Assembly: GCA_014727845.1 (NCBI GenBank) | Contig: WJMR01000232.1 | Location: 1 to 32,061 of the forward strand | DNA length: 32,061 bases | Direction: 5' to 3' | DNA from: Ignavibacteriales bacterium | Lineage (GTDB): Bacteria > Bacteroidota > Ignavibacteria > Ignavibacteriales > Ignavibacteriaceae | Shown: piece after piece, positions 5,252-25,635 of the stretch | Position numbering within the stretch: position 1 is the stretch's first letter | Layout of the letters: each line of letters starts with the position of its first letter | Position numbers and translations under genes: made by a program | The notes under the pieces: model-generated | The model's database searches: none | Seen by the model: the letters and a program-made list of their open reading frames with translations, nothing else | What the model was told of the DNA's origin: nothing

Positions 5252-6091
5252 ATGAACTCGCACCTCCAAGAACTCGGCGAAGAACTTAAGCAAGCGCGCG
5301 AGCGTTCCGAGCTGACGCTCCAACAGATTTCCTCGAAGATCCGCATCGATCCAAAATTCGTCGAGAAGATGGAATCCGGCGAATTCGACTTCCTCCCCGA
5401 CATTTACGTAGCCGCCTTCGTCAAGGAGTTGGCGCGGCTCTACGAGATGAACGAAGAGTTGACCGTTAAGCGCTACAAGGCGGCGAGGGCGGGTAAGGCG
5501 CTCGATCAAATGGAACAAGAGGAAGCCGAGCGTAAAAAAGCCGAGCGCGAACAGGACGAGCAAGAGAGCGAGAGCGGCGAGAAAAAAGTCGTCGGGGACG
5601 ATTCGGACTTCGACGAACACGATTTCTATCAGTCCCGCGCCAAGCAAGCCGCCCGCAACCGGATGGCGATGATCGGCGGGCTCGTCGCCGTCGTCGCGTT
5701 TATCGTCGTTTACTACGTCTTTATCAAACCCGACGACGACGTGATCGTTAAGGAACCCGCCATCGAGGATATCGTCGAGGATAAGCGCGAGCGCTACCGA
5801 ACCGATTCGGACGGCGCGGCGATTTCCGACTCGATGACGCTCGCGCTCGACGTTCGCGAGCGGAGCTGGGTGGCGGTGGTCGAAGACGACGGACGACCGA
5901 TCGATTTGACGTTCGATCGGAACTTCACCTACGAGTATAAGGCGCTTCGAAAATTCCGCCTCACCACGAACAACGCCCCGGGCATCCGCTTGACGCTCGA
6001 CGGCGAACGGATCGATCTGCCCGTTAATTCGAGAGGCAACGCCGCCTTCGAAATCGACCGCGAAGGCGTCGAACGCGTGGACGTCGAATAG
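5252..6091 (+). CDS. RodZ-like protein: HTH_25 domain, single TM segment, DUF4115-like C-terminal domain
   Basis: LGEELKQARERSELTLQQISSKIRIDPKFVEKMESGEFDFLPDIYVAAFVKELARLYEMN; TM segment MAMIGGLVAVVAFIVVYYVFI; C-terminal beta-rich VRERSWVAVVEDDGRPID. Confidence 0.82.
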   Translation: MNSHLQELGEELKQARERSELTLQQISSKIRIDPKFVEKMESGEFDFLPDIYVAAFVKELARLYEMNEELTVKRYKAARAGKALDQMEQEEAERKKAEREQDEQESESGEKKVVGDDSDFDEHDFYQSRAKQAARNRMAMIGGLVAVVAFIVVYYVFIKPDDDVIVKEPAIEDIVEDKRERYRTDSDGAAISDSMTLALDVRERSWVAVVEDDGRPIDLTFDRNFTYEYKALRKFRLTTNNAPGIRLTLDGERIDLPVNSRGNAAFEIDREGVERVDVE

Positions 6092-6102
6092 CCGGACGGC
6101 TT

Positions 6103-8127
6103 ATGGGAGAAGACCTCGCCAAGCGCGCCGAGGAACTGCGCGAGAAAATCGACGAGTACGACTACCACTACTACGTCCTCAACGATCCGCTCGTTTCCGA
6201 CAAGGAATACGACAAGCTCTTCCAAGAACTCGAGAAGATCGAAGAGGAGCGCCCGGAACTCCGAACCCCCGACTCCCCCACCCAACGCGTCGGCGACGAC
6301 CTCACGGAAGAATTCCCGACCGTCGAGCACGACGAGCCGATGCTCAGTCTCCAAAACTCCTACAACCGAGGGGAACTCGAGGACTTCGACCGCCGCGCGC
6401 GCGAAGGATTGGACGGCGAGGAGCCGGAGTACGTCGTCGAGTATAAGATCGACGGCGCGTCCATTTCCCTCCGCTACGAGAACGGCAAGCTAACGAGCGC
6501 CGCCACGCGGGGCGACGGGAAACGCGGCGACGACGTCCTCCCCAACGCCCGCGTCGTCCGCGCCGTTCCCCTCTCTTTCGACGCGCCGAAGGGCTACGAA
6601 CGGGTGGAGATCCGAGGAGAGATTTTTATGCCGATCCGGGCGTTCGAGGAACTTAATCGCGAGCGAGAACGAGCGGGCGAGAAACCGTTCGCCAATCCGC
6701 GCAACGCCGCCGCCGGAACGCTGAAACTCCACGATCCGAGAATAGCCGCCAAGCGCGGTCTCTCTATCTTCGTCTATCAGATCGTCGGCGCCCCCGCCGA
6801 GCTCGGCGACCACCAAGCCGCGCTCCGCAAACTCGAAGCGTTCCGCTTCAAGGTGACGGAGAATTACCGCCTTTGTAATAACGTCGCCGAAGCGCTCGAG
6901 CATGTCGAGCGGTTGGAGGCGCGCCGCGACGAGCTCGACTACGAAGTGGACGGGGCGGTGATCAAGATTAACGACTATCGGATGCGCGCAAAACTCGGCG
7001 CCGTCTCGCGCTCCCCGCGGTGGGCGATCGCCTATAAATTCGAGGCGAAGCAAGCGACGACGACGCTCGAACGCGTGACGTGGCAGGTGGGACGCACCGG
7101 CGCCGTCACGCCCGTCGCCGAACTCGAGCCCGTGCGGTTGGCGGGATCGACGGTGAGCCGCGCGACGCTCCACAACTACGACGAGATTACGCGGAAGGAC
7201 GTTCGCGAGGGAGACCGCGTAACGGTGGAGAAAGGCGGCGACGTGATTCCGAAAATCGTCGCGCCGATCGAACGCGTCCGCGACGGCTCCGAGAAGGAAA
7301 TCCGACCGCCGAAGTCGTGCCCTTCCTGCGGCGACGAGCTTACCCGACAGGAAGACGAGGTCGGGCTCTACTGCGTGAACGCCGAGTGTCCGGCGCAGAA
7401 GAAGGCGCGACTCCGGCATTTCGCCTCGCGCGGGGCGATGGACGTCGAGGGGTTGGGCGAGGCGGTCGTCGAGACGTTCGTGGAGGCGGGCTTGCTCTCG
7501 AACTTCGCGGACGTGTACGACCTTCGCGAGCGCGCCGAGGAGATCGAGGCGCTCGAGGGCTTCGGCGAGAAGAGCGTCCGCAATTTGCTCGACGCTATCG
7601 AGGAGAGCAAACGCCGTCCGTTCGAGCGCGTACTCTACGCCTTGGGCGTCCGCTTCGTCGGCGAGTCGGCGGCGCAAACGTTGGCGAGAACGTTCGGCGA
7701 CGTCGGCGCGTTGGCGAACGCGACGGTGGATGAGTTGCAAGAGGCGCCCGACGTCGGTCCGCGCATCGCGACGAGCGTCCGAACGTTTTTCGAGGACGCG
7801 CGGAACCTCGCGCTTATCGAGCGTCTGAAGAAGGCGGGCTTGCGATTCGAGTCGGAAGCCGACAAAACGCCCGAGCCGGGCGAGAATTTTTTCGCGGGCA
7901 AAAAGTTCGTCCTCACGGGATCGCTCGAACGCCACTCCCGAACCGAGGCGAAGAAACGCATCGAACGTCTGGGCGGCAAAGTCGTCTCCGCCGTGAGCGG
8001 CGCGACCGACGCGGTTATCGCGGGCGCCGACCCGGGATCGAAACTGGACGCGGCGAAGAAGAAAAACGTCGCCGTCGTATCCGAAGAAGAATTTTACCGT
8101 AAGCTGAAGGAAGCCGACGCCGAATGA
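6103..8127 (+). CDS. ligA: NAD-dependent DNA ligase LigA
   Basis: 674 aa; DYHYYVLNDPLVSDKEYDKLF, active-site VEYKIDGASISLRYENG, four-Cys zinc finger CPSCGDELTRQEDEVGLYCVNAECPAQ, C-terminal BRCT. Confidence 0.98.
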   Translation: MGEDLAKRAEELREKIDEYDYHYYVLNDPLVSDKEYDKLFQELEKIEEERPELRTPDSPTQRVGDDLTEEFPTVEHDEPMLSLQNSYNRGELEDFDRRAREGLDGEEPEYVVEYKIDGASISLRYENGKLTSAATRGDGKRGDDVLPNARVVRAVPLSFDAPKGYERVEIRGEIFMPIRAFEELNRERERAGEKPFANPRNAAAGTLKLHDPRIAAKRGLSIFVYQIVGAPAELGDHQAALRKLEAFRFKVTENYRLCNNVAEALEHVERLEARRDELDYEVDGAVIKINDYRMRAKLGAVSRSPRWAIAYKFEAKQATTTLERVTWQVGRTGAVTPVAELEPVRLAGSTVSRATLHNYDEITRKDVREGDRVTVEKGGDVIPKIVAPIERVRDGSEKEIRPPKSCPSCGDELTRQEDEVGLYCVNAECPAQKKARLRHFASRGAMDVEGLGEAVVETFVEAGLLSNFADVYDLRERAEEIEALEGFGEKSVRNLLDAIEESKRRPFERVLYALGVRFVGESAAQTLARTFGDVGALANATVDELQEAPDVGPRIATSVRTFFEDARNLALIERLKKAGLRFESEADKTPEPGENFFAGKKFVLTGSLERHSRTEAKKRIERLGGKVVSAVSGATDAVIAGADPGSKLDAAKKKNVAVVSEEEFYRKLKEADAE

Positions 8128-15642: not shown

Positions 15643-16305
15643 ATGTTTAATCACGAAGCGATCGAACGCCTGCTTCATTTCGCGACGCTCATGCCGATCT
15701 TCTTTCTCTCGATCGCCGCGCACGAGTACGCCCACGCGCGCGCCGCGTATCACTACGGCGACGACACCGCCAAAAAGCAAGGACGCCTTACGCTCAATCC
15801 GCTCAAGCACCTCGATCTCGTCGGCTCGGTCTTGATGCCGCTGATGGCGTTCTTCTCCGGCTTCGCGCTCATCGGGTGGGCGAAGCCCGTGCCCGTCAAT
15901 CCCGCCAATTTCGGCGACCCGCGCGGCGACGACGCGGTCGTAACGTTCTTCGGTCCCGGCGCCAACCTCGCGCTCGCCTTCGCGTTCCTCGCCGTCTTCG
16001 CCGCCGTCTTTCATGGCCCTTTCCTCCCAATCGACGTCGCCAACGTCGTCGTGCAAATCGCATGGTACGGCATGTACCTCAACGTCTTCCTTTGCCTTTT
16101 CAACTTGCTCCCCATTCCCCCGCTCGACGGCTCGCATCTCCTCTACGCGCTCTTCCCGACCGAAACGATGCGAAGCTACATGCGCTTGGGCGCTTACGGA
16201 ACGTTCATTCTCCTCGTCTTCATCTACAGTCCGTTGTGGGATTACTTTTCGAGCGTCGTCGATTTCGCGTTGGATAATATGCTCAAACTCGCGGGGGCGT
16301 CGTGA
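15643..16305 (+). CDS. Site-2 protease (M50) family membrane metalloprotease
   Basis: HEYAHA zinc motif, GWAKPVPVNPANF, NLLPIPPLDGSHLLYAL. Confidence 0.92.
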   Translation: MFNHEAIERLLHFATLMPIFFLSIAAHEYAHARAAYHYGDDTAKKQGRLTLNPLKHLDLVGSVLMPLMAFFSGFALIGWAKPVPVNPANFGDPRGDDAVVTFFGPGANLALAFAFLAVFAAVFHGPFLPIDVANVVVQIAWYGMYLNVFLCLFNLLPIPPLDGSHLLYALFPTETMRSYMRLGAYGTFILLVFIYSPLWDYFSSVVDFALDNMLKLAGAS

Positions 16306-18368
16306 CAACCGACCGTCGCGACGTTCGCGTGATCGACGGCGTACTCCTCGCGCTTCTTCTCGTCGCCGCGGCGAGTATGATCCACGGACTCTTCGTTAAC
16401 CAGACGGCGTTCTACGCCGCGTTCTTTCTTCTCGTCGTTCGCTCGATCGTCGCAAAGCAAAACGCGTTTTTTCGCCTCGACGTCGAACCCGCGCTAATCG
16501 CCTTCTTCCTCGCCGCCGTCGTCTCCGCCGCCCTGAGCGATCACACGGGCGACGCCTTCCGGCATTTAGTAAAGCGCGTCGTCCTCGTTCCGTATCTTTA
16601 CGTCGCCGCCTCGGTCGCCGCGCTACGCAAGGAGAACGTCGAGCGGATCGCCTCGGCGCTCTTGGTCGTCGCCGGACTCTTCGCGCTCTACTACGTCGTC
16701 GAGGGCGTCCTCCGGTGGCAAGACGGCTGGTATCGCCGCCACCACCGCGGTCCGGAAGTCCTCACCCACCACATTACCGTGGGCCAAATGTTCGCGTTCG
16801 TCGCCCTCGCCGCGCTGTCGATCGCTTGGTTGGAGCGACGCGGCGTTTGGCGAAGAGCGCTTTTCGGATCGATCGGGGCGCTCTCTCTCCTCGCGGTCGT
16901 CGTGTCGTATAGTCGCTCCGCATGGATTGGATTCGTCGCCGGCGCGTTCGCCGTCGCCCTCGTCGAGCGGAAGTGGTGGGCGATCGCCCCGATACCCGTC
17001 GCCGCGCTTATGTATATTTTGCTTATCCCCGACCGGAGCGCGGTTATTGAATATCGTCGCGTCGGCGACCAATGGCTTGTGGAACGACAAACGCCGACGT
17101 TCGACAAAGCCAACGACTGCGTACGCTTCGGCGACCGACTTCTCGTCGCCGACTACGCCGGCGGCGTGCTCGAGTATCGCGACGGAGAAGTCTTGCCTTT
17201 CATCGAAACGCCCTCGCCCGCGTTGAAACTCATCCCGTGGAACGACGACCGCTTCGTCGTGATGACGTTGGACAATCGCTTTCTTCTGTACGCGCCCCGC
17301 GCCGACTCTTTCGTCTTCGAACGCGAGTTCTGGTCGCCCGGGAAAACTCGCGACGCCGCCGCTCACCGCGACTATTTCTACGCCGTCGATCGCGACAGCG
17401 GCGTAACCGTTTGGCGCGACCCCGCCGACCCGAAAATCGTCTCGCGCGTTCCGCTCCTCGACTTCGGCGCCGTCGTCCCCGACTCTTCGCGCACGCTTGT
17501 CTATTCCCGGCATCGAGGACTCGTCGTTCTCCGCGCGGAGAACGGAGCGACGAAATCCGACACGCTCGCCGTCTTGCCGCCCGACGAAGTAAGTCGTCCC
17601 TTTCTCGGCCTCGGATGCTCCGCGCTCCTCAACGGTTTTCGCCTTTTCGACTACGCCGACGGCGCCGTGCATCCGCTCACCGTGTCTCGACGGGAACTCC
17701 GCGACCTTTGGCTCGTCGATTACGACGAGGACACCGTCGTCGGATTCTTCTTTAGCGGCGAGGGCTTCGAGGCGACGCTCGACGACGACTCCGTGCGCGT
17801 TCTCGCCGCCGTTTCCGCTCCGCTACTTCCGATGGGATTCGAGAAATCGGGGGAGCGCGCCTGGGCGGTCTATTGGCGAAGCAATCGTCTCCTCTCCCTC
17901 TTCGATTTCGCGACCCGCTCCAACCAAGAGCGCCTGACGCTCTGGTCCATCGGCGCGAGGATCATAGCCGACAATCCCGTCTTCGGCGTCGGCGACGTTG
18001 ACTTGCATCCGTACTTTTTCGCGTATCGCGAGCCGCATCAGAAAGAGGCGTACGGTCACCTCCACAATAACTACCTCCACTTGCTCGCGACGCTCGGCGT
18101 CGTCGGACTCCTCGCCTATCTATGGTTGATCGGATCGCTCGCGGTCGTCCACCTTCGCGCCGTCCGCCTCGCGGAACGCGGCACGTTCGATCGCGCGTTC
18201 GCCGTCGGAGCGTTGGGGGCGTTCGTCGCGTATCTCGCGTCGGGCGTTGGCAACTGGAATTTCGGCGACCATGAAGTCGTCGCGTTCGTGTGGTTTTTCG
18301 CGGGATTGGCGGCGTCGGTGGTTAAGCGTCGGCGCGACGCCGGCGCCGAATTATCGTTGTCCGATTGA
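16302..18368 (+). CDS. O-antigen ligase (Wzy/WaaL) family polytopic protein with a large inserted repeat domain in the extracytoplasmic loop
   Basis: GTG start overlapping the M50 gene by 4 bp. Multiple N-terminal TM segments, SYSRSAWIGFVAGA, then about 290 non-TM residues, then QERLTLWSIGARIIADNPVFGVGDVDLHPYFFAYREP...GHLHNNYLHLLATLGVVGLLAYL. Confidence 0.8.
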   Translation: MTTDRRDVRVIDGVLLALLLVAAASMIHGLFVNQTAFYAAFFLLVVRSIVAKQNAFFRLDVEPALIAFFLAAVVSAALSDHTGDAFRHLVKRVVLVPYLYVAASVAALRKENVERIASALLVVAGLFALYYVVEGVLRWQDGWYRRHHRGPEVLTHHITVGQMFAFVALAALSIAWLERRGVWRRALFGSIGALSLLAVVVSYSRSAWIGFVAGAFAVALVERKWWAIAPIPVAALMYILLIPDRSAVIEYRRVGDQWLVERQTPTFDKANDCVRFGDRLLVADYAGGVLEYRDGEVLPFIETPSPALKLIPWNDDRFVVMTLDNRFLLYAPRADSFVFEREFWSPGKTRDAAAHRDYFYAVDRDSGVTVWRDPADPKIVSRVPLLDFGAVVPDSSRTLVYSRHRGLVVLRAENGATKSDTLAVLPPDEVSRPFLGLGCSALLNGFRLFDYADGAVHPLTVSRRELRDLWLVDYDEDTVVGFFFSGEGFEATLDDDSVRVLAAVSAPLLPMGFEKSGERAWAVYWRSNRLLSLFDFATRSNQERLTLWSIGARIIADNPVFGVGDVDLHPYFFAYREPHQKEAYGHLHNNYLHLLATLGVVGLLAYLWLIGSLAVVHLRAVRLAERGTFDRAFAVGALGAFVAYLASGVGNWNFGDHEVVAFVWFFAGLAASVVKRRRDAGAELSLSD

Positions 18369-23478: not shown

Positions 23479-24616
23479 AGTCCTCAACGTTTACAACGGC
23501 TTCTACCGTGGCGGCACGGAGAAGTACATCCGCATGCTCCTCGAGGGAGTCGATCCCGACCGATATGAACACTCGGTCTGTTGCCTCATCGAGCGTGGCG
23601 ATCATGCCGAGTGGGTGGAGGAAGGGGGCTACAAGATGCACGTACTCGCCGCGACGAACGATCAATCGCCGCGCAACTGGTTCCGTAACATCCGACAGAT
23701 TTGGAAACTCTCGCGTATCCTTAAACGAGAGCGGATCGACGTCGTTCACTCGCACGATTTCTTTCCCGCGTTTATGACGAGATTCGCCGCGCTCCTCGCC
23801 CGCACGCCCGTCGTGTTCGTCACACACCACAACCTTTTCGAGTGGCTCAAGCCGATCCACCATCGCGTCAACCGATTCCTCGCCAAGCGGACGACGAAGA
23901 TCGTCGCCGTATCAGAGAGCGTGCTGCGACGCTCCGCCAAAACCGACCGCGTCGATCTCGACAAATACGAGCTCATCTACAACGGGTTGGATTTCTCAAA
24001 CCTCGCGCCCGACGCGGGGAAGCGAGAACGAGCGCGTCGCGAACTCGGCGTCGAGGGTAAGCGGGTAATCGGGACGATCGGCGGGTTAAGCTTCCGCAAG
24101 GGGCAACGCTTTTTAATCGAGGCGTTCGGCGTACTCGCCAAGGAGTCGGAAGATCTTGCGTTGGTCGTCGTCGGAGGGACGGTGCAAAACGAGCCGACGA
24201 TGTTGCGCGACCTTGAAGCGTCGGCGGAGCGCTTAGGCGTTCGCGACCGCGTCGTCTTCACGGGCGCCCGAACCGACGCGACCGATCTCCTCAACGCGTT
24301 CGACGTCTTCGCGCTTCCCTCGGTCGCGGAGGGCTTCGGCTACGTGTTGGTCGAGGCGATGGCGACGGAGGTTCCCGTCGTTTGCTCGGATATCACGACG
24401 TTTCGCGAGATCACGCGCGAGGGCGAGTTCGGCGCCTTGTTCAAGAATACAGACGCGGCTGATTTGGCGGAGAAGTTGCGCGAGACGCTTGCGCGCAAAG
24501 AAGAACTCCGCGCCCGTACGGAACGAGCGCGGAGCTATGTCCTGCAAACCTTCGACGTCGAGACGACGCTCGCGCGATACAACGACCTCTACGATCGCCA
24601 CGCGCCGCGCCGCTAA
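23462..24616 (+). CDS. Glycosyltransferase family 4
   Basis: LNVYNGFYRGGTEKYIRMLLEGV; IDVVHSHDFFPAF; FTGARTDATDLLNAFDVFALPSVAEGFGYVLVEAMATEVPVVCSDI. Confidence 0.92.
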   Translation: MKNKRKVLNVYNGFYRGGTEKYIRMLLEGVDPDRYEHSVCCLIERGDHAEWVEEGGYKMHVLAATNDQSPRNWFRNIRQIWKLSRILKRERIDVVHSHDFFPAFMTRFAALLARTPVVFVTHHNLFEWLKPIHHRVNRFLAKRTTKIVAVSESVLRRSAKTDRVDLDKYELIYNGLDFSNLAPDAGKRERARRELGVEGKRVIGTIGGLSFRKGQRFLIEAFGVLAKESEDLALVVVGGTVQNEPTMLRDLEASAERLGVRDRVVFTGARTDATDLLNAFDVFALPSVAEGFGYVLVEAMATEVPVVCSDITTFREITREGEFGALFKNTDAADLAEKLRETLARKEELRARTERARSYVLQTFDVETTLARYNDLYDRHAPRR

Positions 24617-25635
24617 CCTTCGATCCGCTTTCCTTCCTCGTCGTACTCGACGAAGTTGAAGACGTACTCCCACCAGTTGTTGAGTCTTCCGTCCTCGTTC
24701 CAACCCGGCGCGCGCGGCAGACGCGTGAACCACCACTCGAGGTAGTTGAGCTGATAGTCCGGACCGCCCCACGTCTCGCGATTGACGGGCTTCGTCTCGC
24801 CGTCGAGTTCCGGATAGTCGAGCCAATCATCCGCCGAAGATTGCACGGTGCGCGGATTCGCGTAGTCGTAGTGCTTCTCGCCGTTCGGCGGGAAGTGGCA
24901 AGTGCCGACCGCCGCCGTCCCGGACTGATGCTCGTTCGCGGCGAAGCGCGCCCAGTTCGTCGTCAGCTCGTCCGTCTCCCAGCCGCCATAGACGCGGCTC
25001 ATCGTCGATTCGGTTCGATGGCAGAGATCGTGCACCATTTCGGCGACGCCGCGTTCGTAGTTGAATCCCATAATGGCGAACGGCTCCACGGACTCGACTT
25101 CGTCGTACACGCCGCCGTTGATGAAGAAGGCGCCGGGTCCCGCCATCGCCGCCTCCCAATAGCCGAAGTAGGGCGCGCCGAACAGCCACACCTCGTCGAA
25201 TTCGCCCGCGTCGTGCCGCTCGGCGAGTTTGAACTTCTCGATCATCTTGGGATAGTCCATCCCGTCGGGGTCGTGCCAACCCTCCCACGAGTCGAAGCAT
25301 TCGAGATAGCTCTCGTCGTCGTATTGGAACCCGTCGCGCTTGACGGGATAGTAGTCCGCGTTCTCCCACTCGACGATTTGGTAATCTATTATACCATGAC
25401 TGATCTTCTTCACGCTCGAGGCGTATTCGTCGGCGAGCCAACGGGGGTCGTTGTATTCGGCGTATTCGTGGAGGCGAACGCCGTCGCGCGCCTCGAGTAT
25501 CGGATCGACGTTGATCACCAGTACGCGCACGGTTATCGTGCGGACGGGCGCGTCGTCGGTTTGCGCCGTCGTCGGCGCGCTCGTAAGCGAGGCGACGATC
25601 GCGAGCGTCAATAGGGCGTGTCGTAACGCTTTCAT
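24613..25635 (-). CDS. Secreted conserved protein of uncharacterised function with a HDLCHRTES motif
   Basis: N-terminal signal peptide MKALRHALLTLAIVASLTSAPTTAQ; DEVWLFGAPYFGYWEAAMAGPGAFFINGG; IMGFNYERGVAEMVHDLCHRTESTMSRVYGGW. AAGGAT Shine-Dalgarno-like sequence upstream. Confidence 0.8.
   Translation of the reverse strand: MKALRHALLTLAIVASLTSAPTTAQTDDAPVRTITVRVLVINVDPILEARDGVRLHEYAEYNDPRWLADEYASSVKKISHGIIDYQIVEWENADYYPVKRDGFQYDDESYLECFDSWEGWHDPDGMDYPKMIEKFKLAERHDAGEFDEVWLFGAPYFGYWEAAMAGPGAFFINGGVYDEVESVEPFAIMGFNYERGVAEMVHDLCHRTESTMSRVYGGWETDELTTNWARFAANEHQSGTAAVGTCHFPPNGEKHYDYANPRTVQSSADDWLDYPELDGETKPVNRETWGGPDYQLNYLEWWFTRLPRAPGWNEDGRLNNWWEYVFNFVEYDEEGKRIEG

Follow-up and report, generated by a model that had tools for sequence, protein, structure and literature searches.

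The locus and its gene product

Within the window, by which we mean the whole stretch of 32,061 nucleotides analysed here, a gene on the plus strand (16302..18368) encodes a protein of 688 aa, which its translation, a match to Pfam Wzy_C and full-length orthologues in related genomes identify as a propeller-bearing glycan ligase of the WaaL type. The gene starts with GTG and overlaps the end of an M50 peptidase gene (15643..16305, plus strand), the latter being part of an upstream gene order, HDIG-XerD-M50-(lipoprotein)-MsbA-ligase, that is shared with many related genomes. HDIG, XerD and M50 precede the ligase in the window's own genome as they do in the relatives; the msbA and lipoprotein genes are absent between M50 and the ligase at this locus, and the best MsbA match of the genome, an MsbA-like exporter, sits on another contig. 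Since LpxC is present in the genome, lipid A is probably made. Two further Wzy_C proteins are encoded besides the propeller ligase, one of them located after Wzz-like and Wzx-like genes in a separate cluster and probably acting as a polymerase, which leaves the ligase role open for the propeller protein. The row of Wzz-like, Wzx-like and Wzy_C genes found at L177:43-4167 (contig C68 of the same genome) is probably a polymer-making cluster.

The GC content of the window is 60% against a mean of 36% in the loci of relatives, and on a tree of the enzyme core the window's ligase shows a long branch and skewed composition. Frameshift, chimaera and recent acquisition were ruled out, the reading frame being continuous and GC3 amounting to 0.79, 0.755 and 0.79 in the N-terminal core, the insert and the C-terminal core, respectively. 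Elsewhere in the window, the minus strand (24613..25635) encodes a 340-aa protein that looks secreted and has no Pfam match.

A membrane core with the catalytic residues of WaaL ligases

The Wzy_C match (E 3e-17, 63.1 bits versus a curated cut-off of 31.7) covers residues 523-607 and is found in 30/30 family members. The AlphaFold model has 12 transmembrane helices (TM) and, towards the C-terminus, a long loop in the periplasm. These helices comprise an N-terminal bundle of TM1-TM9 (residues 6-243; 16317..17030, plus strand), delineated also by loop charges, and TM10-TM12 (residues 590-687; 18069..18362, plus strand). Cytoplasmic loops are long and rich in K/R while periplasmic ones are short and nearly devoid of them, a bias that fits a cytoplasmic position of both termini and a periplasmic position of the inserted domain. 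The catalytic periplasmic segment ahead of TM10 (residues 529-589; 17886..18068, plus strand) is common to insert-bearing and insert-less forms, as defined by the Wzy_C match and by the resumption of insert-less proteins at profile positions 526-541.

By sequence, the relative of solved structure is the WaaL ligase 7tpg, in which two arginines bind the diphosphate and one histidine is proposed to activate the acceptor (PMC10920833). In the alignment its second diphosphate-binding residue R265 corresponds to R544 (17931..17933, plus strand) and the proposed activator H313 to H588 (18063..18065, plus strand), both retained in 62/62 propeller forms; R205 (16914..16916, plus strand; R in 59/62) is the counterpart of R191, which binds undecaprenyl diphosphate, by motif, the local alignment there being not significant. 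Polymerases of clan GT-C1 mostly have Glu or Asp at the position of the ligase His (PMC10920833), whereas the propeller forms have neither there. Judged by these sequence features, the core is an intact enzyme of the O-antigen-ligase type (WaaL-type, GT121-like), and the first-pass annotation, which had called it O-antigen-ligase-like, is supported by the Wzy_C match, the 7tpg alignment and the conserved catalytic residues alike.

An inserted domain predicted to be a seven-bladed propeller

In the AlphaFold model of the full protein, built on a 30-member family alignment (mean pLDDT 86.5, pTM 0.82), an all-beta domain running from residue ~244 to ~527 breaks the membrane bundle. Folded alone, the insert (pLDDT 86.9, pTM 0.87) contains exactly 28 strands ordered as two, then six groups of four, then two, i.e., seven blades of four strands, and it is predicted to be a velcro-closed beta-propeller (residues 245-526; 17034..17879, plus strand), an assignment resting on the models, on fold and profile matches and on a repeat test. 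Blade 7 is split, with strands C and D at the N-terminal end of the domain (245-254 and 257-265 in the models; 17034..17096) and strands A and B at its C-terminal end (512-526; 17835..17879), so that the domain begins and finishes in one blade. Between them the model of the insert alone places, all on the plus strand as are both parts of blade 7, blade 1 (17109..17204), blade 2 (17220..17333), blade 3 (17346..17450), whose DxDSG turn is well conserved by the conservation scores, blade 4 (17469..17576), blade 5 (17601..17678), degenerate and of lowest confidence in both models, and blade 6 (17706..17816).

Searched against PDB with Foldseek, the insert alone gave 1116 matches at E <= 0.001, the best 50 all being propellers or propeller-containing complexes, with TM scores up to 0.66 among the matches listed; the whole protein also retrieved propellers. 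Over 239-520, a match of the family profile to Tako8, a designed propeller, reaches E 4e-5. When the seven blade segments were compared profile to profile, 6/21 pairs exceeded 50% probability (mean 37%) versus 0/63 pairs in column-shuffled controls (mean 0.75%), indicating repeat character beyond chance.

These results bear on what had been read from the sequence at the outset. The translation bears out the open reading frame, the insert at residues ~244-533 (17031-17900) and each of the seven repeat motifs quoted; the motifs, read as units of a propeller-like domain, fall in order on blades 1-7, and prediction of the full protein yielded a closed blade arrangement. The all-beta insert was confirmed, its C-terminal limit moving from ~533 to ~527: the insert proper spans ~245-527, and residues 528-589 belong to the ordinary catalytic loop. 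The supposed insertion into the large periplasmic loop ahead of the R..W/H..N motifs is borne out by the AlphaFold model and the 7tpg alignment, which place the propeller after TM9 and before R544, within the catalytic loop.

Distribution of propeller ligases and their insert-less relatives

A class-wide search revealed insert-containing full-length orthologues in 36/59 genomes of the order (a count taken from the result table) and in six genomes of family f13 outside it, one f13 copy being cut short. Most relatives with a match have the full-length orthologue, insert included, and the named records from an alignment search of genome contigs belong to Ignavibacteriaceae, Melioribacteraceae, Ignavibacterium and Stygiobacter. 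An oddity of one genome is ruled out by these orthologues. The unusual ligase architecture proposed by the first-pass annotation is therefore upheld but is not a one-off: the orthologues present the insert as a standard part of one subfamily through most of the order, which speaks against an oddity and not against the unusual architecture. In 396 genomes of the phylum, the matches listed at E <= 1e-30 include no propeller ligase from outside the class.

Other families of the class possess a form of ~386-440 aa in which the two matching stretches abut, mostly within 15 residues, profile positions 236-247 joining 526-541 with no domain in between. In a core-only tree, a single branch (100/99) has all 62 propeller forms to one side and 27 insert-less forms to the other; the tree is unrooted, and its polarity depends on the most distant rows, which are insert-less, while the exact place of the window's row is unsure owing to its long branch and unusual letter make-up. 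Since one branch parts the two forms, the sequences are most simply explained by a single gain of the propeller followed by descent. A close free-standing donor was not found in 197 genomes of the class, where only weak matches occur outside the ligase (best E 8e-8). In an Ignavibacteriota chromosome (CP053447.1, L070:5941-8063) the ligase is split into open reading frames 5941-6381 and 6384-8063, by a frame break or a sequencing error.

Linkage to msbA in related genomes

Among loci with enough sequence, an MsbA-like exporter is encoded directly upstream in 47/59 propeller loci and 19/27 insert-less loci. The best match of this neighbour is the lipid A exporter model, on which its score of 550 bits stays below the cut-off of 602. 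The linkage, which the window's own locus lacks, suggests lipid A-core as the acceptor. In several genomes of the order the msbA-adjacent slot is occupied by a different, much diverged Wzy_C protein, mostly of ~390 aa and without propeller, which looks like in-place replacement of the ligase and would be expected if the slot holds a ligase with exchangeable specificity. Diverged Wzy_C-like proteins of this slot are encoded at L167:3538-4362, L168:3564-4736, L169:3642-4817, L171:4038-5210, L176:2722-3894, L179:2879-4033 and L180:2926-4086.

Upstream of msbA, many Ignavibacteriales and family f18 encode a lipoprotein of ~290-436 aa (e.g., L031:2892-4133, L074:2943-4157, L034:2816-4114), with SPOR in 5/29 members, weak propeller matches and otherwise no Pfam identity. 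The window's genome gave no match to it, and it occurs in members of the order having no propeller ligase, so it was ruled out as an obligate partner.

Conservation of the propeller and its possible functions

The insert has a mean pairwise identity of 24% versus 47% for the core, and its length is near-constant across families f1-f3 and f13. Near-invariant positions are S246, T266, residue 268, D284, G288, D324, R326, G347, D363, D365 and G367, although conservation of D/G at turns may have purely structural reasons. In blades 1-3, a subset chosen after the data were seen, the D-A and B-C (top-face) loops reach 2.4-3.1 bits and the bottom loops 1.4-2.4 bits; blades 4-7 display low conservation throughout, and top and bottom differ weakly when all loops are compared (permutation p 0.09). 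In propeller topology the D-A and B-C loops lie on one face. This face also carries the 7B-7C turn, where the domain is joined to the rest of the protein at both ends; the conserved patch is thus probably directed at the membrane core and the active site, an orientation deduced from blade topology. Such a position favours contact with the core or a nearby substrate over an outward docking surface.

Taken with the catalytic set, this pattern is compatible with the following scheme. A finished polysaccharide would be held at its undecaprenyl diphosphate by R205 and R544, and H588 would activate a hydroxyl of the acceptor; this acceptor is most likely lipid A-core that MsbA has flipped. The propeller, situated in the periplasm above the active site and tethered by the face that bears the conserved loops of blades 1-3, would most likely bind and position one of the two substrates, so that blades 4-7, which evolve faster, and the opposite face could adapt as local glycan structures change. 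The first-pass annotation had proposed that the insert could bind the acceptor or nascent glycan or recruit a partner. Of such roles we favour the positioning of a substrate at the active site, for which PorZ offers a precedent as a glycan-binding propeller protein acting on LPS, and we give it about an even chance of being correct; the narrower proposal that the propeller serves as a built-in glycan-recognition module choosing the polysaccharide or the acceptor is put forward tentatively. Insert-less relatives with the same neighbours manage without the domain, hence the basic reaction does not require it.

It is conceivable, if rather doubtful, that the propeller instead provides a platform for protein-protein docking which couples ligation to transport, with MsbA, an Lpt component, the Wzx/Wzy/Wzz complex or the order-specific upstream lipoprotein as proposed partners. 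Most propellers among the Foldseek matches listed are protein-binding scaffolds (WD40, RCC1, BamB), msbA is tightly linked in the propeller loci, and the lipoprotein lies upstream of msbA in many of them; insert-less ligases, however, are also linked to msbA, the lipoprotein is distributed as expected of no obligate partner, and the loops facing outward are poorly conserved. The enzyme itself might be a polymerase (Wzy) or a PglL-like protein O-oligosaccharyltransferase whose propeller reads a protein acceptor, an assignment that overlaps partly with the other readings. Wzy_C spans WaaL and PglL, which are inseparable by simple sequence comparison (PMC3643930), the NCBIfam WaaL model scores far under its cut-off (20 of 277 bits), and the NCBIfam model of an exosortase-linked ligase gives weak matches. 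Such an activity is nevertheless unlikely considering the ligase-type His of all propeller forms, where polymerases of the clan mostly have Glu/Asp (PMC10920833), the linked genes, which are msbA and glycosyltransferases with no pilin-like target, and the PglL-specific PF15864 (PglL_A motif), unmatched in the Pfam scans, albeit this model was built on proteobacterial proteins. That the domain is a ligand-free spacer or lid, gained once and kept for stabilising a flexible catalytic loop, would agree with its much faster evolution relative to the core and with insert-less enzymes at the same genomic position but is quite improbable in view of the near-invariant positions from S246 to G367 and the near-constant length.

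Relation to known systems and implications

To our knowledge, the way in which WaaL-type ligases discriminate finished polysaccharide from precursor, or choose the acceptor, is still poorly understood. The propeller ligase shares with WaaL of Cupriavidus metallidurans (PDB 7tpg/7tpj; CAZy GT121) the Wzy_C region, 12 TM, the long periplasmic loop and the Arg/Arg/His set, and differs by ~283 residues inserted between TM9 and R544, the C. metallidurans enzyme having 413 residues and no propeller. Closer counterparts are the insert-less relatives of the class (L096:3894-5072, L097 and L101-L108; 386-404 aa), which match the core on both sides of the insert and usually have MsbA upstream and a GT2 enzyme downstream, but continue at ~529 directly after profile position ~240. 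With respect to the propeller, PorZ, from a bacterium belonging to the same wider group, is comparable in that its propellers bind LPS polysaccharide (PMC8545088); it is, however, a surface protein in its own right, which has two propellers but lacks an enzyme domain, and is likened here by fold and not by sequence relation. BamB/PQQ and YncE-type propellers are likewise folds of the bacterial envelope and give weak profile matches (PQQ_2 E 0.005, YncE-type E 0.3), yet they are free-standing, and the sequence matches fall under curated cut-offs.

Both the enzyme class and the fold are thus known, and their combination at this insertion site is apparently undescribed: an earlier report of the ligase-propeller architecture was not found in the open-access literature searched, and scans of Pfam and NCBIfam gave no model for the combination. 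The architecture implies that an entire folded domain can be accommodated in the catalytic loop of the WaaL-type family. Related enzymes that differ by the presence of one large domain at a defined site form a natural pair that makes WaaL specificity testable, and, if the propeller is indeed a glycan-recognition module, the enzyme would be a ligase equipped with its own specificity domain, inherited through an order.
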